Origin: Cellulosimicrobium cellulans
Lineage (GTDB): Bacteria; Actinomycetota; Actinomycetes; Actinomycetales; Cellulomonadaceae
Direction of reading: 5' to 3'
NCBI RefSeq assembly: GCF_016907755.1
Contig: NZ_JAFBCN010000001.1
Coordinates: 2,976,001-3,040,000, forward strand
DNA length: 64,000 nucleotides
The translations under genes and the position numbers were made by a program. Position 1 is the first letter of the stretch. Each line of letters starts with the position of its first letter. Shown one piece after another: positions 734 to 22,421 of this stretch. The notes beneath the pieces were generated by a model. The model did no database searches. It was not told the DNA's origin and was given only the letters and a program-made list of their open reading frames with translations.

Positions 734-1476
734 GCCGCGTCGTCGGCCATGAGGTCGACGACCTCGCCGGAGACCAGCCGGGCGAGCAGGTCGAGGTCGA
801 CGAGCTCCAGCGACGGAGTCCGGCTCAGGCCGGGCGCCGGGAGGACGGGGACCACGGCCTCCACGCCGAGCGTGGCCGCGCCGGCCGCGCGGGCCGAGGC
901 GATGCCGGCGGGCGAGTCCTCGATGGCGACGCAGCGCGTGACGTCGACGCCGAGGCGCTCGGCCGCGAGCAGGTAGGGCTCGGGGTCGGGCTTGCCGCGC
1001 TCGACCTCGTCCCCGCACACGAGCACCTGGAACGCGTCGTCCGGCGCGAGCTCCGCGACGGGCGCGGCGAGCTCGCGGTAGGACATGGTGACGAGCGCGC
1101 ACGGCACGCCGGCCTCGCGCAGCGCCGTGAGGAGCTCGCGCGCGCCGGGCTGCCACGGGACCGCGGCCTGCACCTGCTCGACGACCCGGCCCAGGAGGAA
1201 CGCGACGATCTCGTCGATCGGCAGGTCCACGCCCCCACGCTCTCGGATGATCCGCGCGGACTCGCGCAGCGGGTTCCCCACGAGCGACATGGCGTCCTCG
1301 TGCGTCCACGTGCCCCCGTGCGCCTCGACGAGCTCGTGCTCCGCCGCGATCCAGTAGGGCTCGGTGTCGACGAGCGTGCCGTCCATGTCCCACAAAGTTG
1401 CCTCAGGCAACGGTAAGCCGCCAGAGAACTCAATAGCGCGCTGACCTGCGGAAATACCGTCGGTACGAGAGGACAA
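730..1476 (-). CDS. HAD-family phosphatase (beta-phosphoglucomutase-like), 5' end rebuilt by the integrated element
   Basis: This is a HAD superfamily hydrolase. Motif I is WDMDGTLVDTEPYW; a cap domain follows; motif II is in LVTMSYREL; motifs III and IV are in GKPDPEPYL and VAIEDSPAGIASA. Such enzymes dephosphorylate or isomerise sugar phosphates in the cytoplasm; the substrate is unknown. The start chosen is the TTG at 1476, with GGAG 7 nt upstream. The first 31 codons (1384-1476) come from the integrated element: the natural 5' end of the gene sits at 22338-22421. Both versions end in LP(E/D)A(T/V)LWDM, so the catalytic DMDGT motif is restored. Protein about 248 aa, normal for the family. 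Confidence 0.9.
   Translation of the reverse strand: MSSRTDGISAGQRAIEFSGGLPLPEATLWDMDGTLVDTEPYWIAAEHELVEAHGGTWTHEDAMSLVGNPLRESARIIRERGGVDLPIDEIVAFLLGRVVEQVQAAVPWQPGARELLTALREAGVPCALVTMSYRELAAPVAELAPDDAFQVLVCGDEVERGKPDPEPYLLAAERLGVDVTRCVAIEDSPAGIASARAAGAATLGVEAVVPVLPAPGLSRTPSLELVDLDLLARLVSGEVVDLMADDAA
1384..1412. repeat. attL: left attachment site of the element
   Basis: CATGTCCCACA at 1384-1394 is identical to 22338-22348. The next 18 bases match attR imperfectly, sharing GC, TCAGGCA and C at the same spacing. On the minus strand it encodes ...PEATLWDM of the HAD protein. The conserved continuation suggests the element's attP arm evolved as a copy of the target gene. Confidence 0.8.
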
Positions 1477-1535
1477 GAGTGATCTCCATCAGTGGTCATG
1501 CAACGAACCGTGCAACAACCGACCCTAGCCGCATT
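1477..1535 (-). promoter_or_regulatory. Element-borne promoter and leader for the HAD gene
   Basis: On the minus strand GCGGCTAGGGTCGG (1519-1532) contains TAGGGT, a TAnnnT -10-like box, followed by TGCACGGTTCG, a short leader, and GGAG before the TTG start at 1476. The same 14-mer lies at 22463-22476 in front of the displaced native 5' end, also followed by TGCAC and GTTCGG. The element therefore seems to carry a diverged copy of the target's own promoter. The region also lies between the divergent HAD and integrase genes. Confidence 0.5.
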
Positions 1536-1657
1536 GAGGCGCATAGAGCGACGAGAGGCGCGCCCCCACGGCACCCCGCACATCTACGGGACATGAACCC
1601 CTCACCATCCCGGCCATCCCTCCCGAGTCCCCCCGCCATCACCCAGGGGGGTCTGGC

Positions 1658-2902
1658 ATGACCCGCCGAAGCAAGGGCGACGGCTCCATCAGCTCGTACC
1701 GCCTCGCCAACGGCCAGCTCCGCTGGCGCTGTCAGTGGTACGAGCCGAAGGACCCCATGAACCCCCACCTCGGGAAGCGCCTCGTGGGCAAGGGTGGCTT
1801 CGCGTCTCCGGCTGAGGCCCGCATTGCGCTCCTCAAGCACTTGGTGCTCGTCTCCGACGGCAGGACGACGACCGCGCAGAGCCGTACGACCTTCGATTCC
1901 TACGCCCGTCGGTGGCTTGCGGGCTACCACTTCCCGTCGCCCAACACCCGCGTCTACGTCCAACGGGTCATCAACGCCGTGCAGCCACACATCGGCAACC
2001 TCCAGATGGCGCAGGTCCTCCCCTCCGACCTTGCGGCGTGCTACCGCGCGCTGGAGAACGGCACGGGCCGCAAGGCGACCACCAAGTACACGGCCGGCAA
2101 GCTCGCGCCGTCCACGGTCGCCCGATACAGCGGCTGGCTCGTGACCATCTTCGGCGCCGCAATCGACGACGGGCTGATCTCACGCAACCCGGCATCGAAC
2201 CGGCGCTCGGGGCGACCCCGCGGCCCGCAGGCACGTCGCGTCAAGCCCTTCGCCGTCTGGAACGTGGACCAGATGATGTCGTTCTGCGACTGGGCGTTCC
2301 GAACCGATCAGCCGTGGGCACGCGCCTGGTGGATCCTCGCGCTCACCGGACTGCGATCGGGCGAGCTCCTCGGCCTCGAGTGGCAAGACGTCAATCTCAC
2401 AACAGCCAGCCTCACGGTCAAGCAGGCGCTGCGGTACAACGAGTCCCTACCCCACGGGCAGCGCACCGAGATCGGCCCCACCAAGCACGGCCGCATCCGC
2501 ACGATCTACCTTGAGCCCAGAGCGCAGAAGCATTTTGCCCTCCTCAAGCAGCAGCGGGACACCACCTCGACCCTGATCGGCGGTCGGCGCCACAACCTCG
2601 TGTTCCCGCCTGGCAACAACCGCTCACCCAGCCAGTCCGCCCTGCTCTCGGCATTCAAACGCGCCCAGGCAGGCTACCGAAGTGCGCACCCGAACGTCCC
2701 ACTACCGAACCTCACCGTCCACGACCTCCGACACACCCACGCTTCACTGCTCCTCGCGGCAGGAGTCGACATCAAGGTCATCCAGGAGCGCCTCGGACAC
2801 TCCAACGCCGCGATCACCCTGGGCACCTACGCGCACCTCATGCCCGATGCGCACCAGGGAGCCGCGAACCGACTCGAGGCCCTCCTCGCCGGAGACAACT
2901 AA
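1658..2902 (+). CDS. int: Tyrosine site-specific recombinase (phage-type integrase)
   Basis: This integrase catalyses integration and probably excision between attP and attB. It has 414 aa. An N-terminal arm-binding, AP2-like segment (SISSYRLANGQLRWRCQWYE) comes first, then a SAM-like core-binding domain at about residues 65-180. The catalytic domain shows Arg-I in LTGLRSGELLGLEW, the box II HDLRHTHASLLLAAG (H-x-x-R), LGHSNAAITLGTYAHLM with the conserved histidine, and the tyrosine in TYAHLM. It starts at an ATG preceded by a G-rich stretch, about 180 nt from the divergent HAD gene. It sits beside attL, the usual position. No excisionase was recognised. Confidence 0.95.
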   Translation: MTRRSKGDGSISSYRLANGQLRWRCQWYEPKDPMNPHLGKRLVGKGGFASPAEARIALLKHLVLVSDGRTTTAQSRTTFDSYARRWLAGYHFPSPNTRVYVQRVINAVQPHIGNLQMAQVLPSDLAACYRALENGTGRKATTKYTAGKLAPSTVARYSGWLVTIFGAAIDDGLISRNPASNRRSGRPRGPQARRVKPFAVWNVDQMMSFCDWAFRTDQPWARAWWILALTGLRSGELLGLEWQDVNLTTASLTVKQALRYNESLPHGQRTEIGPTKHGRIRTIYLEPRAQKHFALLKQQRDTTSTLIGGRRHNLVFPPGNNRSPSQSALLSAFKRAQAGYRSAHPNVPLPNLTVHDLRHTHASLLLAAGVDIKVIQERLGHSNAAITLGTYAHLMPDAHQGAANRLEALLAGDN

Positions 2903-3171: not shown

Positions 3172-3435
3172 TCACATGTCTGCGAGCAGGTCCTCGAGCA
3201 TCTGCTCTGTTCTGTGCGTGTCGCGGTCGACGAAGACGATGTCGGCATCAAGCGCGCGGATGACCGACAGGACGCGAATGCGCTCCGCCCGCGGGCGTCG
3301 ACCGCGCTCGATCTCGGCAACGAAGGCGCGTGGGACGTTGGCGCGCGCGGCGAGCTCGGCCTGGGTCAGCCCGGCGCGCTCTCGCCGCTCGCGCAGCGCG
3401 GCCCCAAGCTGGAGAGGTCCGGAGACAGGACGCAT
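3172..3435 (-). CDS. Small XRE-family regulator, HipB-like
   Basis: An 87-aa cytoplasmic DNA-binding protein. A helix-turn-helix runs from LGAALRERRERAGLTQAELAA through VPRAFVAEIERG, followed by a C-terminal strand-rich tail (LDADIVFVDRD) typical of HipB-like antitoxins and small XRE repressors. ATG at 3435 was chosen because it begins the conserved helix region; upstream in-frame codons look non-coding. No hipA-like kinase gene is adjacent, so it is more likely a regulator of the island than an intact toxin-antitoxin antitoxin. Confidence 0.8.
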   Translation of the reverse strand: MRPVSGPLQLGAALRERRERAGLTQAELAARANVPRAFVAEIERGRRPRAERIRVLSVIRALDADIVFVDRDTHRTEQMLEDLLADM

Positions 3436-3598
3436 GGGTGTCACAGCACCGTGACAAACAGCATTGTCACGGATCCACGACGCTTGGCGGTGCGTCTGCC
3501 TCCGCCGCCCGAACACGACAGTGGGCCTAGGCGGCAGCCCGGGCCCCTCACCAACCACTGCATTACACAGTCGAAGCCGCGGGTATAGATTTTATGCG

Positions 3599-3844
3599 TC
3601 AGTCGTCGGGGTCGTCCGCGGCGTGCAGCATCAACTGGACCTCGAAGTCGAACGCCTCGCGTCGACGTCGCGCGCGGGTCACGGACCCGATGATCGTGAA
3701 GACGGCACCAACCAAGATGAGCAGCGGGCCCGCGCCGCCGTCGAACGCCGCCGCGAGCAGTCCTAGCGCAAGGAGGACGATGCCGACGTACACCGAGGCC
3801 GGGGTGATGACTTTGGTCTGATACGGGCGATTTTTCACGGGCAT
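3599..3844 (-). CDS. Small membrane protein, unknown function
   Basis: 81 aa with two hydrophobic segments, TPASVYVGIVLLALGLLAAA and GPLLILVGAVFTIIGSV, separated by a short DGGAG turn. A basic RARRRR stretch and an acidic C-terminus follow. It is a predicted two-helix membrane hairpin with both ends probably in the cytoplasm (positive-inside rule). ATG at 3844 was chosen; the upstream extension is out of character. The family was not recognised. Confidence 0.6.
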   Translation of the reverse strand: MPVKNRPYQTKVITPASVYVGIVLLALGLLAAAFDGGAGPLLILVGAVFTIIGSVTRARRRREAFDFEVQLMLHAADDPDD

Positions 3845-3901
3845 GCGAGCGTACCGACTTCTTACGCCGCGGCCGACCGCCGCGCCGGGCGGACCTCGTC
3901 C

Positions 3902-4264
3902 GTGATCGAGCCCACCACGGCGGGTCATAGCGACGCCGCAACAGCGCCCCCACGACCGGTACTGACCGAGCGCCTCGCGGCCTTGGGGACGCGTGCGTCG
4001 ATCGGGACCGTCGCCGACGCCTATGACCACGCCTTTGCGGAGTCCGCAATCGGGCTCTACAAGACCGAACTGATCCGCCGCCACGGGCCCTGGCGAACCC
4101 TGGACGGCGTCGAGATCGCGACCCTGGAATGGGTCGACTGGTTCAACAACCGTCGCCTACGCACCGAGCTCGGCGATATGCCGCCAGCCGAGCACGAGAC
4201 GATCCACCGCCCTCAGAACCCGGTCGTCACGACGGCCGAGACCAGAGAACCGAGACTCCACTGA
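3902..4264 (+). pseudogene. IS3-family transposase (OrfB integrase core), C-terminal remnant
   Basis: The segment TERLAALGTRASIGTVADAYDH through ESAIGLYKTEL, GPWRTLDGVEIATLEWVDWFNNRRLRTELG and PPAEHE is the classical C-terminal part of an IS3-family DDE transposase. The glutamate of the triad lies in AESAI. Upstream, HSDA is followed by a garbled stretch where HSD-GSQY is expected, and the first catalytic aspartate region is absent. OrfA and the left end were not found, so the copy is inactive. Confidence 0.85.
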
Positions 4265-4279
4265 ACCCGGGGCGGTTCA
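4262..4279 (+). repeat. Right terminal inverted repeat of the IS3 remnant
   Basis: TGAACCCGGGGCGGTTCA has the IS3-family end sequence, reading outward as TGAACCGCCCC on the other strand. It lies just after the transposase remnant and a few bases before the NACHT gene. No left copy was found nearby. Confidence 0.65.
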
Positions 4280-4310
4280 GTCTGTGAGGGAATCGTGCTC
4301 GCACGGCAGG

Positions 4311-7118
4311 ATGGAGCCCATGTCGTACCGACTTGACGATCTCGGGGCACACGAGTTCGAGCACCTGATCCAGGCACTTCTGGTCAAGCTCTATGGTCCG
4401 ACCGTTGGTGTGTTCGGCAGCGGTCCAGACAGCGGTCGGGACGGCACGCTGCGCGGTCGCTCGGATGAGATCCGAACCGTCGAGGGGAAGGCCGTTCCTC
4501 AGGACGCGGGACCGCAGCAGAGCACGATATGGGACGGGTACCACGTGTTCCAGGTCAAGTTCCGCGAGCAACCGCTCGGCACCGGGCCGGATCTCGCCTG
4601 GTTCCTCAACCAGGTCCAGGCCGAGCTTACAAAGTGGACTGACGCAAGAAAGGGACGCAAGGGCCCTCGGCCCGAGTACATCGTCTTCGTGACGAACGTT
4701 GCGCTTTCTGGACAGATCGGCGGCGGGCTCGACAGAGCCACCGACGTCATCCGCATGCACGCCGACAAGCACGGTTGGCCGTTGAAGGACTGCCAGGTCT
4801 GGGATCGCACCAAGGTCACCACCCTGCTCGACACAGCGGCGGACGTTCGACAACGGTTCAACGGCCTACTCACGGTCGGGGACGTCCTGGCAAGCCTCAG
4901 ACAGATGACGCGCGGGGAACTTGACCCGGACACGGTCCGCACAACGCTCGAAGAGCACATGCGCTCGGAACTACGGAACAGGGCGTACGTCAACCTCAGT
5001 GAGGCAGGTCAGATCGCAAGCGAGCGCATCGACCTCACCAGCGTGGCAGTAGACCTACCGAGCTACCCCGACCTGGCGGCTGACGCACACCGCCCGCAGC
5101 TCACGATGAAGAAGATCGTTGCCGCCGGAGATGCCGTCCTCCGACCCGAGGTCTACGACGGCGAACCAGAGCACTTCCTCATCGTCGGAGGCCCTGGGCA
5201 GGGAAAGACCACACTCGGACGCTTCCTTCTACAGCTCTACCAGGCAAACATCCTCGCCGACCAAGAGGGCCTCTCAGCCCCCGTCGCCCGAGCCGTCGCA
5301 GACGTCCTCGCCCGGGCCGAGGGAATCGGAATCCAGCGGCCTCGCAATCGCCGGTGGCCGGTTCGCGTCGACCTCGCCGAGTACGCCGACAAAGTCGGCG
5401 GTGGTGAAGACACTTCGCTGTTGCGGTACATCGCCGGCCGAATCGCGGCACAGACCGACCTCGACCTCCACGCGCGTGACCTTCGCAAATGGCTCAGCGC
5501 ATGGCCGTGGCTGCTCATTCTCGACGGCTACGACGAGGTAGCCGCTCGCCCCGCGAGAGAGACCGTCGCGAAGGCCGTGAGCCAGTTGCTCGAGACCGCA
5601 CATACCGAGGACGCCGACCTCCTCGTGCTCGCCACCACACGTCCCCAGGGCTACAGCGACGAACTCCCCTCATCGTTCCGCCAGGTACGCCTGGCGCCTC
5701 TTCTTCCAGGGGAAGCCGTTGCCTATGCCACGGCGCTCGTGCATGCACGGCTGGGTGAGAGCCAAGACGTGCCGGGGATACTCCAGCGGATCGCCGACGC
5801 GGTCGAAAACCCGCTGACGAGTCGCCTGATGCAGACCCCTCTCCAGGTCATGTTCATGACGCTCCTCCTCGAACACCGCAGGAAGCCGCCCCAGGATCGT
5901 GCGGAACTCTTCCAGAGGTACTACGACGTCATCTACGACCGCGAGACAGCCAAGACAAACCACCTCGCGAAGCTGCTCCACACCTACCGAGCAGACGTGG
6001 ACGCCATCCACCAAGCAGTGGGCCTTACGCTTCAGCGGTCGAGCGAAGCAGCCGGCGACGCCGAAGCGATCCTCACCCGCGGCGAGTTCACTACACTCGT
6101 GCGCGACCAACTCGAGACCGCCGGGCACGAGGGGCCAGACCTGGACAACCTCGTCGAGGAACTGATGAAGGCGGCTCAACATCGACTCGTCCTGCTCATG
6201 GCGAAGGGCAAGGACGGGGTGGGTTTCGACCTACGCAGCCTCCAAGAGTTCATGGCTGCGCGGGCGCTTATCGACGCGCCTGACCACGACGTCCTGGAAC
6301 GCCTGCGTACCATCGCGCCCTCCGCGCATTGGCGCAACACCTGGCAACTTGCCGTGGGCCTGATCCACCGCACCCGCTCCTACCTGTTCAACCAGGTCCT
6401 GCAGCTGTTGCGCGAACTCGATAGCGCCACGATCGGGATCGTGATCAAGCCGGGCCCCCACCTCGCCATCGACATCCTCGACGACGGTGTGGCAAACGCA
6501 AGCCCTATGCAACTGCGCCTCCTGCTTACCCACGCGCTCGACGTACTCCAAGGCGTTAGCCTCGGCGCCGGACGACTCGCAGAAGCCCTGGTGGAGCTGG
6601 GAGACGAGAGCGCAGTGCGCACGCAGGTCACCGACGCTCTAGCACGAGCAGTGGATGGTGATCCCGGAGAACGCCACAGCGCACTCGTCGTCCTCGACCA
6701 TCTCGCCGAAAGCGAGGCCACGGGCCCTCTCTTCGTGCGCGCACGACAGCTCAGAGACATGGCACGACGAGCCCCAGAGATCATCGAACCAGTCCGTGGC
6801 AACACAGTCCGGCTCGCCGACGCCCTCCCCAAGACTGCCGCCGCATGGCCCAAGTCCAGCCCACGGGGCCGGTTCTACGCCGACCTACGAACCATCGTCA
6901 CCGCAGCCGGGACCGACGGAACCTTCCGCATACCAAGCGGGTCGATCCAGGCAAGAGAAGCAACGATCGAGGTTCTCGATAGCGATGACGACCTGCTCGA
7001 GGTCGCACAAGCAATAACCGAGATCGAACCTGCAAACTGGCCTGCAAGGTCCGCCATCACCGCACTCGTCTGGCGCGCTTACGAGAGACGGCCCGTAGGC
7101 CCTCTTCCCGGCCGATGA
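4311..7118 (+). CDS. NACHT-domain NTPase with N-terminal PD-(D/E)XK-type nuclease, probable antiphage protein
   Basis: About 935 aa from the ATG at 4311; GTG 4284 and ATG 4320 are also in frame and none has an ideal RBS. The N-terminus resembles a restriction-endonuclease fold: AHEFEHLIQALL helix, then SGRDG (D44) and HVFQVKF (Q81-K83), the D...QxK arrangement. The NACHT core has Walker A GGPGQGKTT (about 293-301) and Walker B LLILDGYDE (about 401-409), with the acidic pair typical of NACHT. LQEFMAARAL near residue 645 is the usual winged-helix end signature. The last 280 aa are helical, probably the sensor. Inference: phage sensing, oligomerisation and DNA cleavage, as in bacterial NLR-related defence proteins. 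It starts right after an IS3 end. Confidence 0.8.
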   Translation: MEPMSYRLDDLGAHEFEHLIQALLVKLYGPTVGVFGSGPDSGRDGTLRGRSDEIRTVEGKAVPQDAGPQQSTIWDGYHVFQVKFREQPLGTGPDLAWFLNQVQAELTKWTDARKGRKGPRPEYIVFVTNVALSGQIGGGLDRATDVIRMHADKHGWPLKDCQVWDRTKVTTLLDTAADVRQRFNGLLTVGDVLASLRQMTRGELDPDTVRTTLEEHMRSELRNRAYVNLSEAGQIASERIDLTSVAVDLPSYPDLAADAHRPQLTMKKIVAAGDAVLRPEVYDGEPEHFLIVGGPGQGKTTLGRFLLQLYQANILADQEGLSAPVARAVADVLARAEGIGIQRPRNRRWPVRVDLAEYADKVGGGEDTSLLRYIAGRIAAQTDLDLHARDLRKWLSAWPWLLILDGYDEVAARPARETVAKAVSQLLETAHTEDADLLVLATTRPQGYSDELPSSFRQVRLAPLLPGEAVAYATALVHARLGESQDVPGILQRIADAVENPLTSRLMQTPLQVMFMTLLLEHRRKPPQDRAELFQRYYDVIYDRETAKTNHLAKLLHTYRADVDAIHQAVGLTLQRSSEAAGDAEAILTRGEFTTLVRDQLETAGHEGPDLDNLVEELMKAAQHRLVLLMAKGKDGVGFDLRSLQEFMAARALIDAPDHDVLERLRTIAPSAHWRNTWQLAVGLIHRTRSYLFNQVLQLLRELDSATIGIVIKPGPHLAIDILDDGVANASPMQLRLLLTHALDVLQGVSLGAGRLAEALVELGDESAVRTQVTDALARAVDGDPGERHSALVVLDHLAESEATGPLFVRARQLRDMARRAPEIIEPVRGNTVRLADALPKTAAAWPKSSPRGRFYADLRTIVTAAGTDGTFRIPSGSIQAREATIEVLDSDDDLLEVAQAITEIEPANWPARSAITALVWRAYERRPVGPLPGR

Positions 7119-7242
7119 CGGAGGAAACCGCGCACAGGGCGCGCTCTCGGCAACGCCGCTGAGGCCTGCGCGGCGGCCTCGCGGCTCGCCGACACCCGCC
7201 TTAGCGGTTGCCCGTCGTCCGCCGCAAGGTCGACCACCACAG

Positions 7243-8073
7243 TCAGTAGACCGCGATGGCGTCGATCACCACCGCAGGGCCCGGGATGTAGGCCTGGATG
7301 TCGTCGGCTGGCAGGTCGACGTCCAGAGCCTTCGACAGGCCCGCGACCATGTCATCCATCGTGGTCATGAGAGTGCGCTTGACCATCCACTCCCACCCGT
7401 GCAGAAGCCACTTCTCGGCGTTGAGGTAGTCATCGTCAGCTACGAGTGCTTCGACCGTGCCAACGAGCCCGATCTCACCCTCCAGATGGTCAGGTGCGGC
7501 AGCATCGACGAAGTGACCAGGACGGACGCTTAGCAAGACGCGGGGCTGCAGCCCGGTTCCCTGGACCTCGAAGAGTGTCGGTACGGGTACGAGCTGGTTG
7601 CCTAGGTAGACGCCCTTGAGCGCTTCTTCCACACCTGCGGGCATCTGTCCCGACTTCAGATCGTCCAACGAGGTCTCCGCAGAACGGATTGCCTGGAGCA
7701 CCACGTGCAGCAGCTTGCCAGCGACCGAGGCCGTCGTCAGATGCGCTGTTCCTTCGAGCACCAGGGGGACATCCTTGTGCAGCGTCGTGTCGTTGCTCGC
7801 AGACACCACGTGCTCCTCGGCGATGAGCCTGTCGAGCACCTTGCTCACCGCAGCCTTCTGGTTCGGGGCCAACGTGTAGCTCGTCTGAACCTCTACCTCC
7901 GTACCGCGCTCACCACCGACCTCACTCTTGCCGACCCCGAACTTGCCACCACCCTTGCGGTTCTTCACCGTGCGCTCGGTGATCTCCTGCTGCAACGGCA
8001 CGTCCACATCGGCGTACTCAGCAAGGGCGAACAGGGTCTCGGCGTCGAGGAACTTTGGCGTACGAAGCGGCAT
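7243..8073 (-). CDS. Hypothetical protein, tentatively DUF6414-like
   Basis: 276 aa, with the start taken at MPLRTPKFLDAETL. The opening pattern (a short strand, then LDAETLFALAEYADVDVPL with a glutamine-rich helix) and the later VSKVLDRLIAEEHVV segment recall the DUF6414 family; this is from memory of the family shape, not a search. No transmembrane segment, Walker motif or nuclease motif is visible. It is convergent with the NACHT gene across 124 nt and shares its lower-GC character, so the two may have arrived together. A regulatory or accessory role in defence is only a guess. Confidence 0.55.
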   Translation of the reverse strand: MPLRTPKFLDAETLFALAEYADVDVPLQQEITERTVKNRKGGGKFGVGKSEVGGERGTEVEVQTSYTLAPNQKAAVSKVLDRLIAEEHVVSASNDTTLHKDVPLVLEGTAHLTTASVAGKLLHVVLQAIRSAETSLDDLKSGQMPAGVEEALKGVYLGNQLVPVPTLFEVQGTGLQPRVLLSVRPGHFVDAAAPDHLEGEIGLVGTVEALVADDDYLNAEKWLLHGWEWMVKRTLMTTMDDMVAGLSKALDVDLPADDIQAYIPGPAVVIDAIAVY

Positions 8074-8205
8074 GCACCAATGCTGCCCGATGCCACCCAC
8101 ACGTCGGCAGGTCCGCACGCCTGACCGTGCTCCATGGCCGCCGGACTACGGGCCGCCGTGAACGAGTCCGCCCTACTCAGCGATTGCACCAGGATCGAAT
8201 ACTGC

Positions 8206-8440
8206 TCAGTTGATGAGCGCGTTGACCCGGTTGGGCCGGAAGCCCGACCAGTGGTCGTCGCCGGCGACGACTACCAGCACCTGCGGGTAGCCGAGCTCGC
8301 GCTCGAGGGCCGCGGCGCCCTGGGTGACGTCGACAACGCGGTACTCAATGCCATTCTTGTCCAGGCCCAGTAGGTCGCGTCGCACTGGACGCAGGTTCCT
8401 TGCCCATGACAACCACAGCAGCGGTGGTTCCGGTGGCCAT
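8206..8440 (-). pseudogene. nrdH: NrdH-like glutaredoxin, broken by two single-base losses
   Basis: Three frames read in succession give TTAAVVVMGKE, then CVQCDATY, then LDKNGIEYRVVDVT through VVVAGDDHWSGFRPNRVNALIN. Joined, these are a complete NrdH redoxin with its CxxC active site (CVQC), missing one base after GKEP and one before LDK. The start ATG (8440) overlaps the stop of the upstream gene as TGATG, so translational coupling survives although the frame is broken. NrdH normally reduces class Ib ribonucleotide reductase; none is present here. Sequencing error should be excluded. Confidence 0.7.
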
Positions 8441-8741: not shown

Positions 8742-8861
8742 CGGTGCACCTTCTTCAGGTGTCGCTCCCATCCCTGGAAGGTGTGGGGTGATGCCCGCGT
8801 GTGACGCCGCGGCGCTAGAGTTCTCCTCTGTCGCGGGACAACGCCGGTGATGACGGGCGAA

Positions 8862-8890: not shown

Positions 8891-8898
8891 CTCGCTCG

Positions 8899-11324: not shown

Positions 11325-11350
11325 GGGGTGCGTGAAGCCCTTCGTGCTGG

Positions 11351-11667: not shown

Positions 11668-11671
11668 GGGG

Positions 11672-14345: not shown

Positions 14346-14531
14346 TGGCTCGGGACTAGACCACGGCAAAAGTAGGACTGCCCACGATCTCGAGTTCGCC
14401 CGCCACCGGTCACCTCGTGCGCGGAGGGCGCTTCGTAACAAGGAACGAGTCTCAGGCCGATTCACGACTTCCCCGGCAGGAGCGTTGTGGAAGTTTCTGA
14501 CAAGTAAAGGAGAGCCCGTACGATTCGAGGA

Positions 14532-16511
14532 CTAGTCCGCTGTAGGGGTCTCGATGCTCGCGTCCTGCGGGGGTAGAGCGGCGACCACACGCCCGAAGAC
14601 GCGGTCCTGCGCCTGTTTTACCCTTTCAGGGCGTGTCGGGCTCAAGCCCAGGGCGTTCCGGATGTGACTCGTCATGTCCATGTTGCGTAGCGGGCCGTTC
14701 TGCTTGGACCGAATTACGTCGATCAGCGTGGGACCACCGCTCGTGGCGAGCGACTCGACCGCCTCAAGGTCTGCAAGGTCGATCACTTCGGGAGCGGCCG
14801 TGTCCCGCCCGCATAGAATGTTCTTCGCTGCGAGCACCTCGCGTAACCGGTCAAGAACGAACGGGTTGACGGGGTAACCCTCCGTGAGAATCAGAACCGG
14901 ATAGAACCGCGCCGGCTCGCTTTCGCCACGGCTTGGCCGCACTTGGAACCGCGCTTCGCGGATCCGCCTGATGGTCGAGTGGATCTGCTCGAACTTCTTG
15001 CAGAGCGCGTCAATCTCGTGGTCGAGAGTCACGCCCGCCCCACCGTGGGCAGCTTCGCGCATCAGGCGCCTGGTCGAGACATCTGCTACGACCCAGGCAT
15101 GTCCGTAGTCGATGGCGATGTCCGCGACTTTGTGGTTTCTACCGAGTTCGGCCCTGAGCTCGACCTCGGTGTAGACGCGGCCTGGCAGGAGCTCGTATGT
15201 CCTCGCGACGATATCCTGCACGTAGCGCTCGGTCGTCGTGCGGAAACGCGTGTCGAACCGTGCCGCATCGGATGCCGAGCCCTGGGCCTCGATCGCTGCC
15301 TTGACGTCGAAGACCGGCAGCCATGTCACGAGACGGTCGAGCAAGAACTTTGGCGAGACGACGAACCAACTATCGTCATGCTGAATCAACGGGAAGCGTT
15401 CGAAAGCCGAGAACGTCCATGGGACCGAGTTCCAGGGGGTCGACGGGGCGATCTCTGCCTCGTCGATCTGCTGCCGCAACTGCTCGGGAGTCGCAGACAA
15501 AAGACTCAGCACCTGCTCGGTGGCCTGTGGATCGATGGCTCCTGAGAACATGTCGGTCCGGAAGAACGGACTGCCTCCCAAGTTTACACGAGCCCAGATC
15601 GCAAGCACGACCAGCGCCAGGTCGTTCAGGTTATGACCCATCACCTCTGCGTAGGTCTGGGCCAGCGGCAACTGCCCGTCCGAGAATCTTCCGTCGTGCC
15701 ATCGTGCGTCGTAGAGCGCCATGCTCGTGGCGGGGTCGGTGCTGTTGTTGAAGTGCTGATTGGCGATGAACTCACCAATGAGGTCCTCTCTGCGCCTGGG
15801 CTGTTTTCCGCCGTTCAGTCCCGACCCAACGGTGAACAGTGCCGCTGGCAAGAGTCTGACATGCTCCGGGGTCCGCACTTGTCGTCCGCAACTGAACAGC
15901 GCGATCTTGATCAGCACCATAAGCGCCTGGGGAACTACAAGGCGTCGGCGAGGCTTGGCCAGGAACACCAGCGCGCGGTCAAGATACTCGCCGCTCAGAT
16001 ACGTCTGGGCGAACTCACGATCCACGTCGCTCCACCGCACATCTGTCGCGCCGGACTTCGCTGTCCACGTGGTGGCGAACTCGAGCACGTCCGACAGGGA
16101 CGTGTGCTCGATCGTGTTCAGGAGCCACGCCACGCCTGGTTCCTCACCAAGTATGTCCGAGGCCGTCGCATACACCTGGACGATGTCGAGTGGCTCCGGG
16201 CCCTGGAGGAGCTCCTCGGGCACGTACAGTCCGTCGGGCCCTGGTCGCATGGTGACGCCAAGCTCCGGAGCTCTCTGAGCGGCTGCCGCAATCCGAACCA
16301 ACTCGAGCAACTGTGCCTCTTGTTGCGTCCTAGGGGCGGGTAGACCCGCAGTCCCGAGAAGAGCGTCATCAGCCAAGTCGCCTGCTCCCGCTTCTGAAAG
16401 TCGTGACAGCCCTTCGACCCCGAAGCGCTCCCCGAATGCCCGCCGCGTCCCGTCGACGAGACAACGCTGTCCGTGGCCGTCGTACTCGCTCGGAATCGTA
16501 GTGCCTGGCAC
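14532..16511 (-). CDS. Large unknown protein with a possible degenerate PD-(D/E)XK-like C-terminal domain
   Basis: About 659 aa from GTG 16511; the frame stays open to 16733, but that upstream part is arginine-rich and looks non-coding. The start is uncertain. The N-terminal two thirds are helical (YLSGEYLDRALVFLAKPRRRLVVPQALMVLIKIAL). Near the C-terminus, VYTEVELRAELGRNHKVADIAIDYGHAWVVADVSTRR has the helix-D-hairpin-D/E-x-x layout of PD-(D/E)XK enzymes, but DVS replaces the ExK motif, so activity is doubtful. A helix with IDALCKKFEQIHSTIRRIREAR follows. No family recognised. The element position suggests a defence or mobile-element role. Confidence 0.7.
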   Translation of the reverse strand: MPGTTIPSEYDGHGQRCLVDGTRRAFGERFGVEGLSRLSEAGAGDLADDALLGTAGLPAPRTQQEAQLLELVRIAAAAQRAPELGVTMRPGPDGLYVPEELLQGPEPLDIVQVYATASDILGEEPGVAWLLNTIEHTSLSDVLEFATTWTAKSGATDVRWSDVDREFAQTYLSGEYLDRALVFLAKPRRRLVVPQALMVLIKIALFSCGRQVRTPEHVRLLPAALFTVGSGLNGGKQPRRREDLIGEFIANQHFNNSTDPATSMALYDARWHDGRFSDGQLPLAQTYAEVMGHNLNDLALVVLAIWARVNLGGSPFFRTDMFSGAIDPQATEQVLSLLSATPEQLRQQIDEAEIAPSTPWNSVPWTFSAFERFPLIQHDDSWFVVSPKFLLDRLVTWLPVFDVKAAIEAQGSASDAARFDTRFRTTTERYVQDIVARTYELLPGRVYTEVELRAELGRNHKVADIAIDYGHAWVVADVSTRRLMREAAHGGAGVTLDHEIDALCKKFEQIHSTIRRIREARFQVRPSRGESEPARFYPVLILTEGYPVNPFVLDRLREVLAAKNILCGRDTAAPEVIDLADLEAVESLATSGGPTLIDVIRSKQNGPLRNMDMTSHIRNALGLSPTRPERVKQAQDRVFGRVVAALPPQDASIETPTAD

Positions 16512-16800
16512 CGACGGACGCCGCAATCCGCGATCCCAACCCTGCCGCCCGCAGACCAACGGCCAGATCGGATGCTTCCACCGCACGCTCGTCGGCGGGC
16601 GGGCCCTACGCACGCTTCTGCGCCTCAGAGACTGAACGCCGCGCTGCGCTACGCGGATGGCTCCACTTCTACAATCACCACGGACCCCACAACTCGATCT
16701 GCAATCAGCCACACCGGTAGGCCAGCAGACCAACCTCCCTGGACATCGCAGCTAGGCCACAGCAGACGATCGGCACGCTGACGCCGCGGCTAACAAGGGC

Positions 16801-17136
16801 TCAGCCCACCTCGCGGGCGAGATCCTGCAGCAGCTCCCGTGCGGCCAGCGCCGCAGCGATCTGGTCCTCCGCGCTGGTCAGACCGAGCAGCTCGCGGACG
16901 TGCCGGCGCTGCTCGGTCTCGTACGCGGACTCCTGGGGCGGCAGCGGCAGGCTGCCGACCGCGACGGCCGCGGCGGCGAAAGCCCCGGCAGGCGCGCCCA
17001 GCCGGTGCCACTGCTCCAGCAGCTTCGCACGGACAGCCTCGGGTGACTCGCCCAACTCGAGGGAGGCGATGGCTAGACTGCTCAGACCGTCGGCTATCAC
17101 CTGCTGCTTTTCGTGTCCGTCCACGCAGCGAACCAT
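16801..17136 (-). CDS. Hypothetical small helical protein
   Basis: 111 aa, all-helical by appearance (SSLAIASLELGESPEAVRAKLLEQW; AEDQIAAALAARELLQDLAREVG), acidic and soluble. Divergent from the membrane-protein relic at 17166. No recognised domain. Confidence 0.5.
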   Translation of the reverse strand: MVRCVDGHEKQQVIADGLSSLAIASLELGESPEAVRAKLLEQWHRLGAPAGAFAAAAVAVGSLPLPPQESAYETEQRRHVRELLGLTSAEDQIAAALAARELLQDLAREVG

Positions 17137-17165
17137 CCCACACCCAGGGCGTGCCGCACAGCAGC

Positions 17166-17503
17166 ATGGATCCGATCGCCGTCGCCCTGACTGTCCCGGT
17201 CGTGCTCGGCTACGCCACCGTGGTGTGGTGCCGTCGCGTCGACGACCACGTCACCCGGAGCTCGGCGATGAGGGTCCTGGCCGTCTGCGCCATCGGCATC
17301 TTGCTCACCTCGTCGGCATGGTGCTGTTCCTGGTCGCGTGGTACCCCCCCAGCGCTGCGCAGCCGCATCGGGGCGTACTGGCTGGCCGCCAAGCCCATGA
17401 CGCCTGGCCAGTCGGGTGCCGAGAAAGCTGCGCGGCGCGATCGCCACCCGCCGCGATGGAACCCATCGGCAGCGCGCCCGCACCGACGCCTCGCGCGAAC
17501 TAA
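17166..17503 (+). pseudogene. Small membrane protein, frameshifted
   Basis: ATG 17166 opens a segment IAVALTVPVVLGYATVVW followed by RRVDDHVTRSSAMRVLAVCAIGILL. The second hydrophobic stretch continues only in another frame as MVLFLVAWYPPSAAQPH. One indel near 17310 therefore splits a two-helix membrane protein. Family unknown. Confidence 0.45.
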
Positions 17504-17602
17504 GCCGTGCGCACACCAACCCCGGCATCTCCTAGAGCACGCGATGAGCACCGACACGAACAACCTCGACGGTTCAGACCCGTTCGCCTCTCCGCCCCGC
17601 CC

Positions 17603-18064
17603 GTGACCGTTTGCCCGATCGACCAGGACGGGCTGCAGGAGCTCGGGCTGCGCGGCTTACGCCGCGGCACCCGGCACGAGCGTGGACGGCCTGGACGCGC
17701 ACGACGTCGACCGCCCGGAGGCGAAGGCGCTGACCGACCAGTTTGAGAAGGTCGTGCTGCTAGCCAAGGCGGCCGCATTCGAGGAGGGCACCCAGGCGTG
17801 CGCCGACGACGACCGCGGTCAGCACCGGGACTCGATGGGTGCGTACAACGCATACCCCCGCCTCCTGCTTCGCACCAGGCGCTGCGGCTGGAAGAGCAGG
17901 CGAGCCACGTCGAGCTGGTCACCGCGGCCGACGGCCCGTTCGGGCGCGGTGCGAGGGGCCCACTCGTACGGGGGCCCGGGCACGATCCGAAGGTAGTCGC
18001 CGACCTGTCCGCGTCCTCGAGCACAGTGCCACGTAGGGTCAGGACGAACACCTCGCCGAGCTAA
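17603..18064 (+). pseudogene. Degenerate gene with coding-like pieces in several frames
   Basis: GTG 17603 opens VTVCPIDQDGLQELGLRG. The sense continues in a second frame as GTSVDGLDAHDVDRPEAKAL, TDQFEKVVLLAKAAAFEEG, and in a third as LRLEEQASHVELVTAADG. A short 20-codon frame (17544-17606) overlaps its start. Read together they suggest one soluble protein of about 150 aa broken by at least two indels. No family recognised. Confidence 0.4.
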
Positions 18065-18186
18065 CGCTGGTGCTCGAACCCCCGGTCGCGCCGGCCGGTT
18101 CGTGGGTGAGTAGCGACGGAACGTGGCGCGAGCCGGACCCGGCTTCGGCGGCTGACCTCGGCGGCAGGGCAACACATCTACCGGCC

Positions 18187-18960
18187 ATGAGCAACCACAC
18201 CCCCGCGCGCCTGCCCGCCGGTGTGACCGCCGGCGGCCAGTTCGTCGCGTCGGCACGTGCCGAGTCCGCCGTCACCCTCGGCGTCGAGCCGCCCGCGGAT
18301 CGCCAGGCCCGCATCGCGGCCGCCATTTGGGAGGCCTCCATCGTCGCCGAGTCCTACGGCTCCGCGGACCTACGCGGCGTCCTGGCCCGCGCGGAGTTCG
18401 GAGTGAACCTGAGCGAGTACGTCCAGGAGGTCCGGACGCTGCAGGGCAACGACGCCTGGTACGGCGGGGACGTCGACACCGCCTCCCTGCTCGACCAGGG
18501 CCTGGCGCTTCTGGCGGAGACCGGCGCCCACGACCAGCTCGTCACCCGGATCCGGCGGGAGCGGTTCAGCGAGCGCTTCCTCGAAGGTGACCCCGACCCT
18601 GCCGGGCTCGTCGACGACGTGACGGGGCTGCTCGAGACGCACCTCGCGCTGCAGGACGCCGTGCTGCACTCCCCGCTCGCAGGCTCCGAGCAGCTCGTCC
18701 GGCCCCGGTACCAGCGCGAACCGACCGGGGCGCCGACCGTCATGCTGGCCCACACCGAGTTCGTCGCGGCCGCCGGCGGTCGCCAGCACGTCACCGCGGC
18801 CCGCACTCCCGCCGGCACCGTCGACCTGTGGGCCGGAGGTCAGCGGGTCGTCGGCCTGGGCGAGCGCCCCATCTGGTCGGCGATCGCCACCAGGGCCGCC
18901 TCGCAGCGACCGGCCGCGGCCGCCGCGGCGTTGGCCGCGGTCCTCGACTCGATACCCTGA
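18187..18960 (+). CDS. GGQF-motif protein of mobile-element type (copy A, intact)
   Basis: 257 aa. It begins MSNHTPARLPAGVTAGGQFV; the (T)PAGV-x-x-GGQF opening is common at the start of unrelated-looking proteins on actinobacterial mobile elements, and its function is unknown. The remainder is helical (IAAAIWEASIVAESYGSADLRG; LLDQGLALLAETGAHDQL), with a strand-rich end (ADLWAGGQ-like, GERPIWSAIATRA). ATG 18187 is chosen over upstream GTG 18070 because it starts the motif. It is convergent with the membrane-anchored protein at 19018-19800; the same arrangement recurs at 20131-21663. Confidence 0.7.
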   Translation: MSNHTPARLPAGVTAGGQFVASARAESAVTLGVEPPADRQARIAAAIWEASIVAESYGSADLRGVLARAEFGVNLSEYVQEVRTLQGNDAWYGGDVDTASLLDQGLALLAETGAHDQLVTRIRRERFSERFLEGDPDPAGLVDDVTGLLETHLALQDAVLHSPLAGSEQLVRPRYQREPTGAPTVMLAHTEFVAAAGGRQHVTAARTPAGTVDLWAGGQRVVGLGERPIWSAIATRAASQRPAAAAAALAAVLDSIP

Positions 18961-19017
18961 GGCCCGCCAACCGCGAATGCTCCGGCCCGGGTCGGGGCGT
19001 TCGCGCTTCCCAGGCCG

Positions 19018-19800
19018 TCAGCCGCGTTGGAGCCTGCGGGACATGCGCGGCAACGACTGCTGCACCCGAGGTCGCTCCACCGGGGTGACGCCTGCGATGG
19101 CGCCGGGCGGGAACACCGGCGTGGACGACGCCTTGCGGCGCATCGTGGTGTTGATGCCCGCTAGCTCGGCAGCGACGTGGTGGAGCGACTTCTTCTTCGC
19201 CCACAGCCTCCCCTGGATGTCCGCCCAGTCCAGATCGAACTGCGAGCGGATCGGCTTGCCGTCCACGCCGACGTAGTCGAACGTGAACGTCACCTGGTTC
19301 TCCTCGGCGAGCTGGTCGTGCTTGGCACGCTGAGGTCCCCAGTCCCAGATGGTGCGCCACTGCTGACCGGGAGCCAGGGTGGCGAACCGTGTTGGGATGG
19401 CCAGGGCCTCCGGAGCGTCCCCACGCCGGTACCCGGGGGTGGAGCGCAACGGGGTGCTCGTCGTCACCTTCACGTCCCGCACCGCGGTCGTGCCGAAGTT
19501 CGCGATGACGATCTCGATGGCCTCCGGGATGTCGGGGTCCTGCTCGAGGTAGGCGACCACCTGAGGCTGCGCCTGCTCGATTCGGATGCGTCGTGCCTCG
19601 CGCGCCTGCTCCAGCGCGAACAGCGCCGCCAGCACCGCGACGGCGATCGTCACCCACGCCGCCAACGCTGCCCACTCCTCCGCGGTGTGGGCCAGCAGGT
19701 GAGCGGGCGAAGCCGGGCTCGCGGCGTACCCCGCCGCGAACGAGGCGACGGCTACGATCATGACGAGCGCGACCGTCATGATCAGGTGCTTCGGCTTCAT
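19018..19800 (-). CDS. Membrane-anchored protein with C-terminal cytoplasmic domain (copy A)
   Basis: 260 aa. Two N-terminal hydrophobic segments (IMTVALVMIVAVASFAAGYA and AALAAWVTIAVAVLAALFAL) lie around SPAHLLAHTAEEWAALA. A helix QAREARRIRIEQAQPQVVAY and a strand-rich domain follow (DIPEAIEIVIANFGTTAVRDVKV; TLAPGQQWRTIWDW; VTFTFDYVGVDGKPI). The layout resembles small actinobacterial membrane proteins in which an immunoglobulin-like soluble domain follows a membrane hairpin. Paralogous along its length to 20878-21663. Function unknown. Confidence 0.72.
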   Translation of the reverse strand: MKPKHLIMTVALVMIVAVASFAAGYAASPASPAHLLAHTAEEWAALAAWVTIAVAVLAALFALEQAREARRIRIEQAQPQVVAYLEQDPDIPEAIEIVIANFGTTAVRDVKVTTSTPLRSTPGYRRGDAPEALAIPTRFATLAPGQQWRTIWDWGPQRAKHDQLAEENQVTFTFDYVGVDGKPIRSQFDLDWADIQGRLWAKKKSLHHVAAELAGINTTMRRKASSTPVFPPGAIAGVTPVERPRVQQSLPRMSRRLQRG

Positions 19801-20130
19801 GGTGCGGACCCTAGCGGAGGTCGCGGCCAGCCCCGGGGTCGCAGGACGAGACGGTAACCGTCCCGGTCGTCCACGCTCCCATCATGACCGACCACATCCT
19901 CTCCATCGTCCTGACCCTCGTCACCGGAACCCTCGCCGGCGCTGGCGGCATCCTGCTCACCGAAGCGGTACCGGCCAGCCGCCAGGCGACGTCGCCGCGC
20001 CACCGCCGACTGCTCGACGCCTTGCCACGGCTGACACCGGCAGCAGCACCGTACGGGCGACACGGGGGCCCACCCGTGCGGTGCTTCGCCCGTCCGGGTG
20101 ACGGCATGTTCCCCCGCATATCCATGAGGC

Positions 20131-20815
20131 ATGAGCACCCGACAGCCCCGCACCCCGGCCGGCGTCAGCACCGGCGGGCAATTCGCCACTACCGCGCACG
20201 CCGAGGCCGACGTCGACCTCAGCGACACCTCGACGATCAGCGCCGAGATCGACGAGCTCGTGGCCGCCCGCATCCAGGAGTACGTCACCGGTTCGCTCGA
20301 GCTGCAGGACTCCGAGGAGTGGGCCGAGGGCGAGGCCGACACCGCCGAGCTGCTCGACCGCGGCCCGGACCTGCTCGCGCACACCGGTGCGCACACCCCG
20401 CAGGTCAACCGGCTGCGTAGCGTCCAGGCCTCGCCCCCAACGCCGAGGGCGAGGAGGACGTCGCCGGGATGGTGTCCTGTCCGAGGTGGCCGACCTGCTC
20501 ACGGTGTATCAGCGCCTCCAGGAGCAGGTCGCCGCCTCCCCGCTGACCGGTTCCCGGTGTTGGCCCAGACCCGGTTCCAGCGGCAGGGCTGCGGAGTGCC
20601 GGCGCTGATCCTGCCGGTGAAGTCTAGCGACACCCCCAGCACAAGCTCGTCTCCGTCGCGGTCATGCTCCGCCCCCACAAGGGAGTGGCCGTGTGGTGCG
20701 GCGGACGGATGCTGAACGGGTCCGAGGAGTTCGGCGTCATGTCCCAGTCGACACGCCGGTCTCCGTCACACAGCGGCCAGCCGCGCTGGAGGCGTTGCTG
20801 CGCTCCATGCCCTGA
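20131..20815 (+). pseudogene. GGQF-motif protein copy B, frameshifted
   Basis: It opens MSTRQPRTPAGVSTGGQFAT and aligns with copy A through LLAHTGAHTPQVNRLR. The alignment then continues in another frame (VLSEVADLLTVYQRLQEQV, ASPLTGS) and later in yet another (VAVMLRPHKGVAVWCGGRM; QRPAALEALLRSMP, stop at 20815). At least two indels. All parts of the copy A sequence are represented, so this is a recently broken full-length gene rather than a fragment. Confidence 0.75.
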
Positions 20816-20877
20816 TCGCCACCGACGCCCCGGCACCTTTCACGGTGGCCGGGACTCGTGCTCTGCGGCGCCGACGC

Positions 20878-21663
20878 TCAGCGACCGATCAGTCCCCGCC
20901 ACGTCGCGCGCAGGCATCTACGCCCCGCGCGAGCGGCAGAGTCCGGCACGGTGACACCGGGCACCGCGGGCTGGTGCTCGCCCATCTCGCTTTGCGCGCT
21001 GGAAGGCCCAGCGGCGATCGCCTCGAGTGCGATCGCGGCGTGATGCATGGTCTTCTTGCTCCCGTAGGTCCGCGCGTCAATCACCGACCAGTCGAGCGTC
21101 GATTCCTCCCTCGGCTTCGAGCCCGCAACTCCGCCGTAGGTAAACGTCAGGGTGACGCGCTTCTCGTTCTCGAGCTCGGGATGCGTGGATCGATCGGGGG
21201 CCCAGTCCCAGAACGTGCGCCACTTCTGACCGGGCGCCAGGGTGCTGAACTCCTTCGGGAGCGGCACCGCCTTCACGCCAGGCCCACCTCCCAGGCCGAG
21301 CGTCCCACGGATCGGTCCGTCCGCGGTCACGGCGACGTCGCGCGCCGCGGTCGCACCGAAGTTCGCGATCACGATGTTGACGGCCGAGGGGATGTCGGGG
21401 TCCTGCTCGAGGTAGGCCACGACGTGAGGCTGCGCCTGGTCGATCCGGATGCGCCGCGCCTCGAGGGCCTGCACCCCTGCGAACACCGCTGCGGCGACAG
21501 CCACGAACACCGCGACCCACGCAGCCGCCGCTGTCCACTCCTCGTGGCTGCGCGGCACCACGTGAGCCGGCGAGTCCGGGCCCGACACCCACCCCATGAT
21601 GTACGCCGCGACCGCGACGATCACCACGACGAGCGAGCCGATCACCCAGTGCTTACGCTCCAT
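20878..21663 (-). CDS. Membrane-anchored protein with C-terminal cytoplasmic domain (copy B)
   Basis: 261 aa from ATG 21663. Hydrophobic segments GSLVVVIVAVAAYIMGWV and AAAAWVAVFVAVAAAVFAGV are followed by ARRIRIDQAQPHVVAYLEQ, DPDIPSAVNIVIANFGATA, TLAPGQKWRTFWDWAPD and a variable tail. These blocks are near-identical in pattern to copy A (ARRIRIEQAQPQVVAYLEQ, DPDIPEAIEIVIANFGTTA), so the genes arose by tandem duplication. The intact state of both membrane genes contrasts with the broken GGQF copy. Role unknown. Confidence 0.72.
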   Translation of the reverse strand: MERKHWVIGSLVVVIVAVAAYIMGWVSGPDSPAHVVPRSHEEWTAAAAWVAVFVAVAAAVFAGVQALEARRIRIDQAQPHVVAYLEQDPDIPSAVNIVIANFGATAARDVAVTADGPIRGTLGLGGGPGVKAVPLPKEFSTLAPGQKWRTFWDWAPDRSTHPELENEKRVTLTFTYGGVAGSKPREESTLDWSVIDARTYGSKKTMHHAAIALEAIAAGPSSAQSEMGEHQPAVPGVTVPDSAARAGRRCLRATWRGLIGR

Positions 21664-22337
21664 GACCGGCGACCCTACCGGTGCGGCCCGAGCCGCAGGA
21701 CGCGACCGTCCGACGCCTACACGCCAGCAGGGTCGGTAGGCCGAACGGCCCAACCCGCGAGCCCCAGGCGAGCCGGCAGCAGCGGTAGCCGAACCGGCTG
21801 GGCGCCGGCGGCGCCCTAAGAGCGCCCCCTCCCTCGCGGTGCTCGGTCGGGTCGGTGGTGGGCGCGCGTCTATCGCGCGTCCATCGCCAGCGCGGACATC
21901 GGTGGGGCGGGCACGACGCGGATCGGCGGCAAAGAGGCCCGCTGCGTGGGTCAAGCGCAGGCGCGTGATGGGCAATGGGCCGCACGGCCACGCCGCACCG
22001 GTCGCATCCCGTGGCGTCTCGACACTGGAGGACCTGCGTCTCGCGGCGCTCGCGCACGGGCCGCTTTACAAGCCGTGCCGTCAGGCACCGCTACGTGGTC
22101 GCGGTGTCCGCGCGGCGTGGACTGCACCTTGGTGTTCGCTTGTGGCGCGGCTCGCGTGGGCCATCCAGGTCCATCTGGAGGCGTCTGGGTGCATCCAGAC
22201 CACGAACGCGATGCACCACGCGATGCATCAAAATCGCCGTCTTCGACCCGCAAATGGACTCTGATCGCCGAGTTCAATGCGCCGAAAGGCGCGTAACTTC
22301 GCCAGTTGCGCCCCTCAGTGACTGTCCGCTGATTTCA
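21664..22337. other. Right-end non-coding region of the element
   Basis: No convincing gene. It holds a tandem direct repeat ACGCGATGCA at 22206-22215 and 22218-22227 (12-bp period) and an inverted repeat GTCTGG/CCAGAC at 22183-22200 with a 6-nt loop. Within 150 bp of attR these are candidates for integrase or excisionase arm-type binding sites. Confidence 0.4.
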
Positions 22338-22366
22338 TGTCCCACAGGACAGCGTCAGGCAGCACC
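22338..22366. repeat. attR: right attachment site of the element
   Basis: CATGTCCCACA (22338-22348) is identical to attL. The following 18 bases match attL at GC, TCAGGCA and C. On the minus strand this is codons ...PDAVLWDM of the native HAD gene, showing that the insertion point is the motif I region. Confidence 0.8.
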
Positions 22367-22421
22367 ACGCTCGAAGACGTCCCGTGAACTGCGTTCATCT
22401 CGCCATGAGGGGCGGCCATCA
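22338..22421 (-). pseudogene. Stranded native 5' end of the HAD phosphatase gene
   Basis: Minus-strand ATG 22421 has GGAG 7 nt upstream and encodes MAAPHGEMNAVHGTSSS then VVLPDAVLWDM, where it meets the element. The next codon in the intact gene would be the D of DMDGT, found at position 1383. Past 22338 the frame runs on into element DNA and closes near 21951, giving a meaningless chimeric ORF. Upstream, GCGGCTAGGGTCGG (22463-22476) is the native promoter-like box shared with the element copy. Confidence 0.8.

Follow-up and report, generated by a model that had tools for sequence, protein, structure and literature searches.

A 21-kb island in Cellulosimicrobium cellulans that replaces the 5' end of a HAD phosphatase gene, and a displaced end that probably stems from an earlier element

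The island and the gene it enters

The tyrosine integrase gene of an integrated 21-kb island and the gene of a HAD-superfamily phosphatase lie side by side in a 64,000-nucleotide stretch of the Cellulosimicrobium cellulans genome (G000:C1, positions 2976001-3040000, from a single 4.79-Mb contig), henceforth termed the window. The island is bracketed by two copies of the 11-bp core CATGTCCCACA, the only exact ones in the window (0.02 expected; 0 of 100 shuffled sequences reach two). On the minus strand the core reads TGTGGGACATG, the L-W-D-M codons of HAD motif I. The original prediction, drawn from the letters of the window, had placed the insertion in these codons and proposed that the element furnishes the gene with a new promoter, ribosome binding site, start and in-frame N-terminus. 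Both proposals are borne out at the level of sequence, the promoter as a promoter-like box (Table 1).

The HAD gene has two alternative 5' ends, one at each side of the island. At its body, the window gene is 92-96% identical to that of seven genomes of the same genus, with matches starting only at residue 23. Its present start is a TTG at 1474-1476, with no other common start codon between it and the preceding in-frame stop; from there, 31 codons lead to the Met of WDM. The right-hand end, MAAPHGEMNAVHGTSSSVVLPDAVLWDM, starts with an ATG at 22417-22419, two bases away from the predicted position 22421, comprises 28 codons and is preceded by its own GGAG (CTCC on the plus strand) at 22426-22429. 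Both ends finish with LP(E/D)A(T/V)LWDM, and joining the flanks at the core yields an open HAD frame that starts MAAPHGE. Upstream of both lies the same 14-nt box GCGGCTAGGGTCGG, embedded in a 34-nt repeat of 82% identity (1499-1532 against 22441-22474). Lengths, convergence at the core, ribosome binding sites and shared box all agree with the earlier description; the origin assigned to the right-hand end does not, as discussed below.

Table 1. Features at and around the island, in window positions (A4, alignment of 14 5' ends upstream of the core).
Feature	Position	Strand	Basis or remark
HAD-superfamily phosphatase, 248 aa, TTG start	730..1476	-	730-1383 host body; 1395-1476 element-derived; PF13419/PF00702
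Attachment (att) core, left copy	1384..1394	.	exact 11-bp repeat; L-W-D-M codons of motif I
Element-encoded N-terminus MSSRTDGISAGQRAIEFSGGLPLPEAT	1395..1476	-	related module at 6 other integrase-bearing loci and 6 without an adjacent integrase gene
Conserved GCAGGTCAG within N-terminal codons A-G-Q	1441..1449	-	GC and TCA invariant, rest near-invariant or common in A4
Ribosome binding site GGAG (CTCC on plus strand) for element-supplied start	1484..1487	-	sequence; GAG invariant in A4
TGCA-N8-TGCA pair, left arm, also HAD 5' leader	1499..1514	.	probable integrase arm-type site
Promoter-like box GCGGCTAGGGTCGG, -10-like TAGGGT (consensus only)	1519..1532	-	identical to 22461-22474; near-invariant TAG..T in A4
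Tyrosine integrase, 414 aa	1658..2902	+	PF00589, E 1.1e-21; 264 bp from left core
Island cargo	3172..21975	.	the five genes below and further open reading frames
Helix-turn-helix regulator	3172-3558	-	Pfam scan
NACHT-like NTPase	4284-7118	+	below curated cut-off
DUF6414-like	7243-8118	-	below curated cut-off
Metallophosphoesterase	13045-13893	+	Pfam scan
Distant GapS1-like protein, 733 aa	14532-16733	-	GapS1 anti-phage family, E 1.5e-8, below curated cut-off
TGCA-N8-TGCA pair, right arm	22212..22227	.	probable integrase arm-type site
Attachment core, right copy	22336..22346	.	exact 11-bp repeat
Displaced 5' end MAAPHGEMNAVHGTSSSVVLPDAV	22347..22419	-	in register in A4; held-out nhmmer match; absent from sister species
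Probable fossil TGCA pair and promoter-like box	22441-22456; 22461-22474	.	outside present element; 82% over 34 nt to 1499-1532
Open reading frame with DUF4184 membrane protein (PF13803)	22621..23778, gene body ~22621-23420	-	between fossil end and PAC2
PAC2-family gene, right host flank	23620..24486	+	PF09754, E 3.9e-67; adjoins HAD in empty-site relatives

A clade of integrases at one target

The integrase has R233, H355, R358 and H381 invariant and Y391 at least near-invariant, which we take to be its catalytic residues. Its closest matches in the protein collection come from Cellulosimicrobium sp. KWT-B (91%) and C. funkei (89%), with Cellulosimicrobium sp. Marseille-Q4280 at 53%. All seven integrases of at least 45% identity, from two families in two orders, adjoin a HAD gene with the same 5' module (G000, the window's genome; G012, G114, G680, G1043, G1048 and G1096), while none of ten loci with integrases at 29-35% identity does within the ~1.5 kb inspected to either side. 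These counts come from overlapping genome sets, and one match shared by L031 and G114 was counted once. Among 221 genomes of the family (E 1e-60) there are five integrases, those of G000, G012 and G114 adjoining HAD and those of G186 and G103 not. A search of 394 genomes of the class (E 1e-75) gave G680, from another order (45-47% identity) and likewise adjoining HAD, and 245 genomes of the G680 family gave G1096, G1048 and G1043 with HAD and G1125, G1133 and G978 without. No HAD gene adjoins the three additional weak integrases found in 396 genomes of the order (G287, G366, G487) or two weak ones from the same genus (G010:C95, G003:C65). Integrase relatives in viral contigs (17 loci, 24-36% identity) had no HAD match, a search of these contigs for the box-and-arm pattern returned none, and no integrase match from phage or plasmid records reached 60% identity. 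Two integrases of 245 aa, P0059 and P0060, lack the N-terminal half; their contigs (238,840 and 664,705 bases) have the same sizes as those of P0003 and P0002, and these two shorter copies are perhaps decayed elements in tandem.

The A4 alignment reveals what these loci share: a TAGGGT-like box in most ends, GAG in all, a start codon and the pattern GC.G.TCA. All seven integrase-bearing loci have A-G-Q in the reading frame of the HAD body. The window, G012 and G114 use TTG as the aligned start codon, and G1096, G1048 and G1043 use CTG; start and N-terminus are in frame with the body, the start of G680 being unclear. At three Nocardioidaceae-type loci (L179 ~18430, L180 ~1300, L171 ~3210), CTG is the sole common start codon at the aligned HAD place, which is unusual. 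Insertion might simply damage the enzyme, the replaced end giving no useful expression and the open frame being a product of chance, and the weak start codons as well as the unclear G680 start would fit such an outcome. The conserved A-G-Q frame, the invariant GAG at the place of the ribosome binding site and the in-frame retention of the module in genomes without an adjacent integrase gene make this highly unlikely. An AlphaFold model of the HAD protein (mean predicted local distance difference test score, pLDDT, 90.7) has its first strand at residues 26-30, ending at the core codons, and suggests that the N-terminal swap leaves the fold intact and may be harmless.

A further shared feature is an exact TGCA-N8-TGCA pair, located in the left arm of five of the seven elements (window, G012, G114, G1096, G1043). 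The window contains five such pairs where 0.27 are expected; three are no more than 125 nt away from a core copy (1499, 22212, 22441), and those at 7031 and 53913 are taken as chance occurrences. The G012 element, with core copies at 2180 and 19104 of contig L038, contains only two pairs in 19.4 kb, one per arm (0.18 expected; 3 of 200 shuffles reach two). Their placement suggests that the pairs are probably arm-type sites of the integrase. As in the window, the direct-repeat core of the G012 element lies at both ends and within the 5' codons of the target. Beyond its right attachment site (attR) are the last 300 bases of the contig (19104-19420), perhaps an assembly join, with what we presume to be a resemblance to part of clpX.

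Together, these features suggest a mechanism in which the integrase would recombine the attachment site of the element (attP) with the part of one HAD phosphatase gene that encodes its invariant L-W-D-M-D. The integrase-side arm of attP would comprise the -10-like box, the probable arm sites, a ribosome binding site, a start and ~20 codons, the last of which duplicate those of the host. Insertion would therefore exchange promoter, start and N-terminal tail of the host gene while keeping both frame and fold intact, and would move the host's 5' end to the far end of the island. Since this attP arm also forms the HAD leader, integrase or excisionase acting at the TGCA pairs would tie HAD expression to the state of the element. 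We infer that the box, a conserved candidate for the replacement promoter, may be active, that the pairs may bind integrase, that the element may still move and that the enzyme with its swapped end is probably functional.

Native, displaced and relic 5' ends

The empty site is found within the genus. G001, G004, G005, G006, G007, G011 and G016 have a contiguous HAD gene that starts VTSPRP..LPQAVLWDMDG, and in these seven as well as in G009 PAC2 begins directly beside HAD (tblastn), with no island and another N-terminus in all eight. PAC2 and HAD are likewise adjacent in G003, G008, G013 and G015. The HAD gene was found in 37 of 39 genomes. In a DNA tree of the HAD body (39 rows, compared stretch taken without its first 10 codons), the window gene clusters with the native-type genes of G016 and G011 (support 98/99).

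These relatives bear directly on the right-hand end. The original prediction regarded 22338-22421 as the native 5' end of the host gene and the shared box as the element's copy of the host promoter, and it expected island-free relatives to carry a contiguous HAD gene starting MAAPHGE. Excision would indeed rejoin this end to the body in an open frame, and the box is identical on both sides. Such a gene was looked for, however, and the seven same-genus genomes start VTSPRP instead; these are the nearest species (G016, G011, G005-G007, G001, G004), and the tree places the window gene in their midst. The right-hand end, in turn, matches the element module in register, and PAC2 lies 1.2 kb off with an extra gene in between. 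Homology to the relatives' intergenic region ends at ~23,560 (judged by eye), followed by 1.2 kb that includes the DUF4184 gene, for which the PAC2-HAD gap of the empty-site relatives is too small. A native origin is therefore improbable, and the copying of a host promoter finds no support: since the sequence on the right corresponds to the module, the box found on both sides most likely stems from two elements rather than from host and element.

The match to the module was also recovered with a held-out profile, built from 12 modules with neither window sequence included and with the core-side columns removed, and run on 90 records (325,200 bases). The profile scored the window element at E 4.3e-26 and the right-hand end (22473-22385) at 2.1e-7. 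It also detected four ends that had not been used, all at HAD starts (G094, 8.1e-10; G052, 2.8e-9; G143, 2.9e-7; G144, 6.9e-5), as well as borderline matches in G139 (0.007) and G069 (0.011). The four come from 73 genomes (79 in the set, six of them used for building), which is not an unbiased rate because 30 of the 79 were picked for matches beginning low in the model; overall, 5' ends were inspected for a minority of the 208 genomes with a HAD match. A pattern written from four of the pair-and-box arrangements gave five matches in the 221 family genomes, and its reversed control gave none. The stretch 22347-22419 is best interpreted not as the host's own 5' end but as a fossil one from an earlier, related element. 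When the displaced end was used as a DNA query against the same 221 genomes, the matches listed, besides itself, were only short (~20-60 nt), falling either in HAD motif I or near 22464-22496; accordingly, a donor element that carries a MAAPHGE end is not known. The ~33 nt at 22464-22496, just upstream of the fossil box, recur at 85-91% elsewhere in many genomes of the family.

Modules without an integrase gene beside HAD provide a view of how such an end could arise. In G010, G002, G072, G080, G142 and G192 the module is in frame; G010, G080 and G192 have an exact TGCA pair, the other three an imperfect one. The clearest case of element decay with the 5' end kept is G080, which is 92% identical over 109 nt to the G114 element, then lacks ~207 nt, and continues with an integrase remnant (101 nt at 84%; 33 aa, E 1.7e-7) before other genes follow. 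For the other five, the module itself suggests descent from an element. The N-terminal codons average 0.64 G+C in the seven elements and 0.70 in the six relics, a small difference that points toward host composition. In G010, whose N-terminus reads MSSRSASTSAGQ.., neither an integrase match nor a second core was found in 19.9 kb of sequence. An island-free strain with such an SSRTDG-type N-terminus had been named beforehand as a finding that would speak against the prediction; the case exists, and decay with retention of the 5' end, most direct in G080, explains it. Between the relic module and PAC2, G010 contains a HipA-like gene (PF07804; L036 2464-3882) and a helix-turn-helix gene, and G002 contains an alpha/beta hydrolase gene; the HipA and hydrolase genes may or may not be leftover cargo. 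A similarity between the helix-turn-helix genes of G010 and the window island was not used, as their orientation differs and the score is modest.

The same genomes could be read in the opposite direction, with the AGQ-type 5' end as an old host end that elements took up later, so that genomes without an integrase never had an element. The six relics, with a module and no nearby integrase, and the four eroded cases would be expected on that account, as would G014, where an N-terminus like that of the G012 element stands behind a native-looking promoter; for the latter reason G014 was rejected as a clear relic and is treated as ambiguous. Yet G080 keeps its integrase remnant, two elements have the TGCA pair in their opposite arm as well, an arrangement not accounted for by a host regulatory site, and on the HAD-body tree the element-type label needs seven changes, at least five of them forced by well-supported branches (G014 and G069 uncounted). 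We regard an old host end as quite improbable.

Several observations weigh against descent of the displaced end from an earlier element, or against the wider scheme of one integrase clade at one target. The displaced end shares only 44-57% identity with the other modules over aligned columns and starts with ATG rather than the TTG or CTG of the elements; no integrase remnant was found beside it, nor in G010 or G002. A second core or attR was found for the window and G012, and not for the other five elements. The pair is inexact in G1048 (CGCA twice, 12 bp apart) and reduced to its second half in G680, where the aligned TTG is moreover out of frame and start candidates (GTG, TTG or ATG) lie elsewhere. 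Two integrases look damaged: that of G012 has a frame change near residue 12 (by eye; listed as 380 aa), and the G680 gene is split. P0059 and P0060 could not be placed relative to HAD. The empty-site relatives belong to species of the genus other than that of the window. On the tree, 73 and 91 of 500 label shuffles were as low as the observed count, i.e., the element-type label is not clearly clustered and behaves as scattered. Finally, HAD residues 1-16 have pLDDT below 50, which is only partly evidence of disorder since 21 of the 28 rows in the alignment behind the structure model lack the N-terminal tail.

Even so, we consider it very likely, from comparison of these sequences, that the island is an integrative element whose integrase belongs to a HAD-targeting clade, that it replaces promoter, start and N-terminus, and that the displaced end is what decay has left of an earlier element's module. 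The swap would have taken place at least twice in this lineage, with 22347-22474 as the remaining module of an element whose body was lost. A host enzyme would then have had its promoter and first residues handed over by mobile DNA several times and kept them after the donor decayed. Such fossil ends can mislead calls of native starts, as probably happened here, and would at the same time record element traffic at a single site. They also offer a set of natural variants for exploring the extent to which promoter and N-terminus can be exchanged before function is lost. More tentatively, and with somewhat more doubt than confidence, repeated insertion and decay could represent a standing source of new 5' ends for a conserved phosphatase across actinobacterial families, with expression tied to element state. 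Site-specific integration in actinobacteria may benefit from the conserved TGTGGGACATG site and from an integrase clade for which just one target has been found to date.

Precedent and cargo

Known genomic islands rebuild targets such as tRNA genes and icd at the 3' end. Another such target is trmE, likewise described as restored at its 3' end in the portion of the source available. As with the window island, the gene entered is restored; the host promoter, however, stays in place when the 3' end is rebuilt, whereas here promoter and start would change hands. Closer precedents are IMEVchUSA3 and related dusA islands, for which the sections consulted describe integrase-mediated entry into the 5' end of a conserved enzyme gene, exchange of the 5' portion for a new 5' end (PMC4482086), and an element-supplied promoter and in-frame N-terminus with dusA still expressed at a lower level (PMC8409611, PMC4482086). 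They differ in target and in hosts, given there as Acinetobacter, Pseudomonas, Vibrio and E. coli (PMC8409611, PMC4482086). The dusA-associated integrase family is defined by insertion in dusA, and the target of all seven loci here is the HAD phosphatase gene. In the parts of these sources that were available, relic 5' ends are not described for dusA islands, and the word 'relics' is absent from PMC8409611. SXT/R391 integrative and conjugative elements likewise supply promoter and N-terminus, at prfC, according to the excerpts seen (cited in PMC8409611; PMC2791158), but are ~100 kb in size and conjugative, while Pfam scans found no conjugation genes in the window island.

The original prediction had called the mechanism less familiar. 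The principle is known from IMEVchUSA3 at dusA and SXT at prfC, as far as those accounts go, and what appears new in the literature searched is the HAD target, the integrase clade and the inherited fossil 5' ends. We recognised no element in a HAD gene or in Cellulosimicrobium in titles and abstracts of the open-licence literature, and a report elsewhere or an unannotated island-database entry is possible. The word 'hydrolase' does not occur in PMC12884075, and the portion of PMC10383233 that was available mentions a HAD protein as cargo only.

Actinobacterial integrative and conjugative elements are recognised by conjugation and replication genes. A Pfam scan of 17 island open reading frames, some overlapping, found neither of these (TraB/FtsK-like and relaxase families among the former), although very divergent ones are possible, and no phage structural or packaging families apart from one sub-threshold holin-like match (E 0.0094). 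Part of the cargo looks defence-like, judging by the NACHT-like NTPase and the GapS1-like protein. Toward the right end, 18070-19800 and 20131-21975 form by eye an apparent twofold two-gene unit, each copy with a short protein that has PAGV..GGQF near its start and a membrane-like protein in the opposite direction; 19463-19762 and 21326-21625 are 75% identical over 300 nt. By motif, 3902-4264 (+) presumably represents the 3' end of an IS3-type transposase gene, and transposase-like remnants lie near 12100-12700 and 16600-16750.

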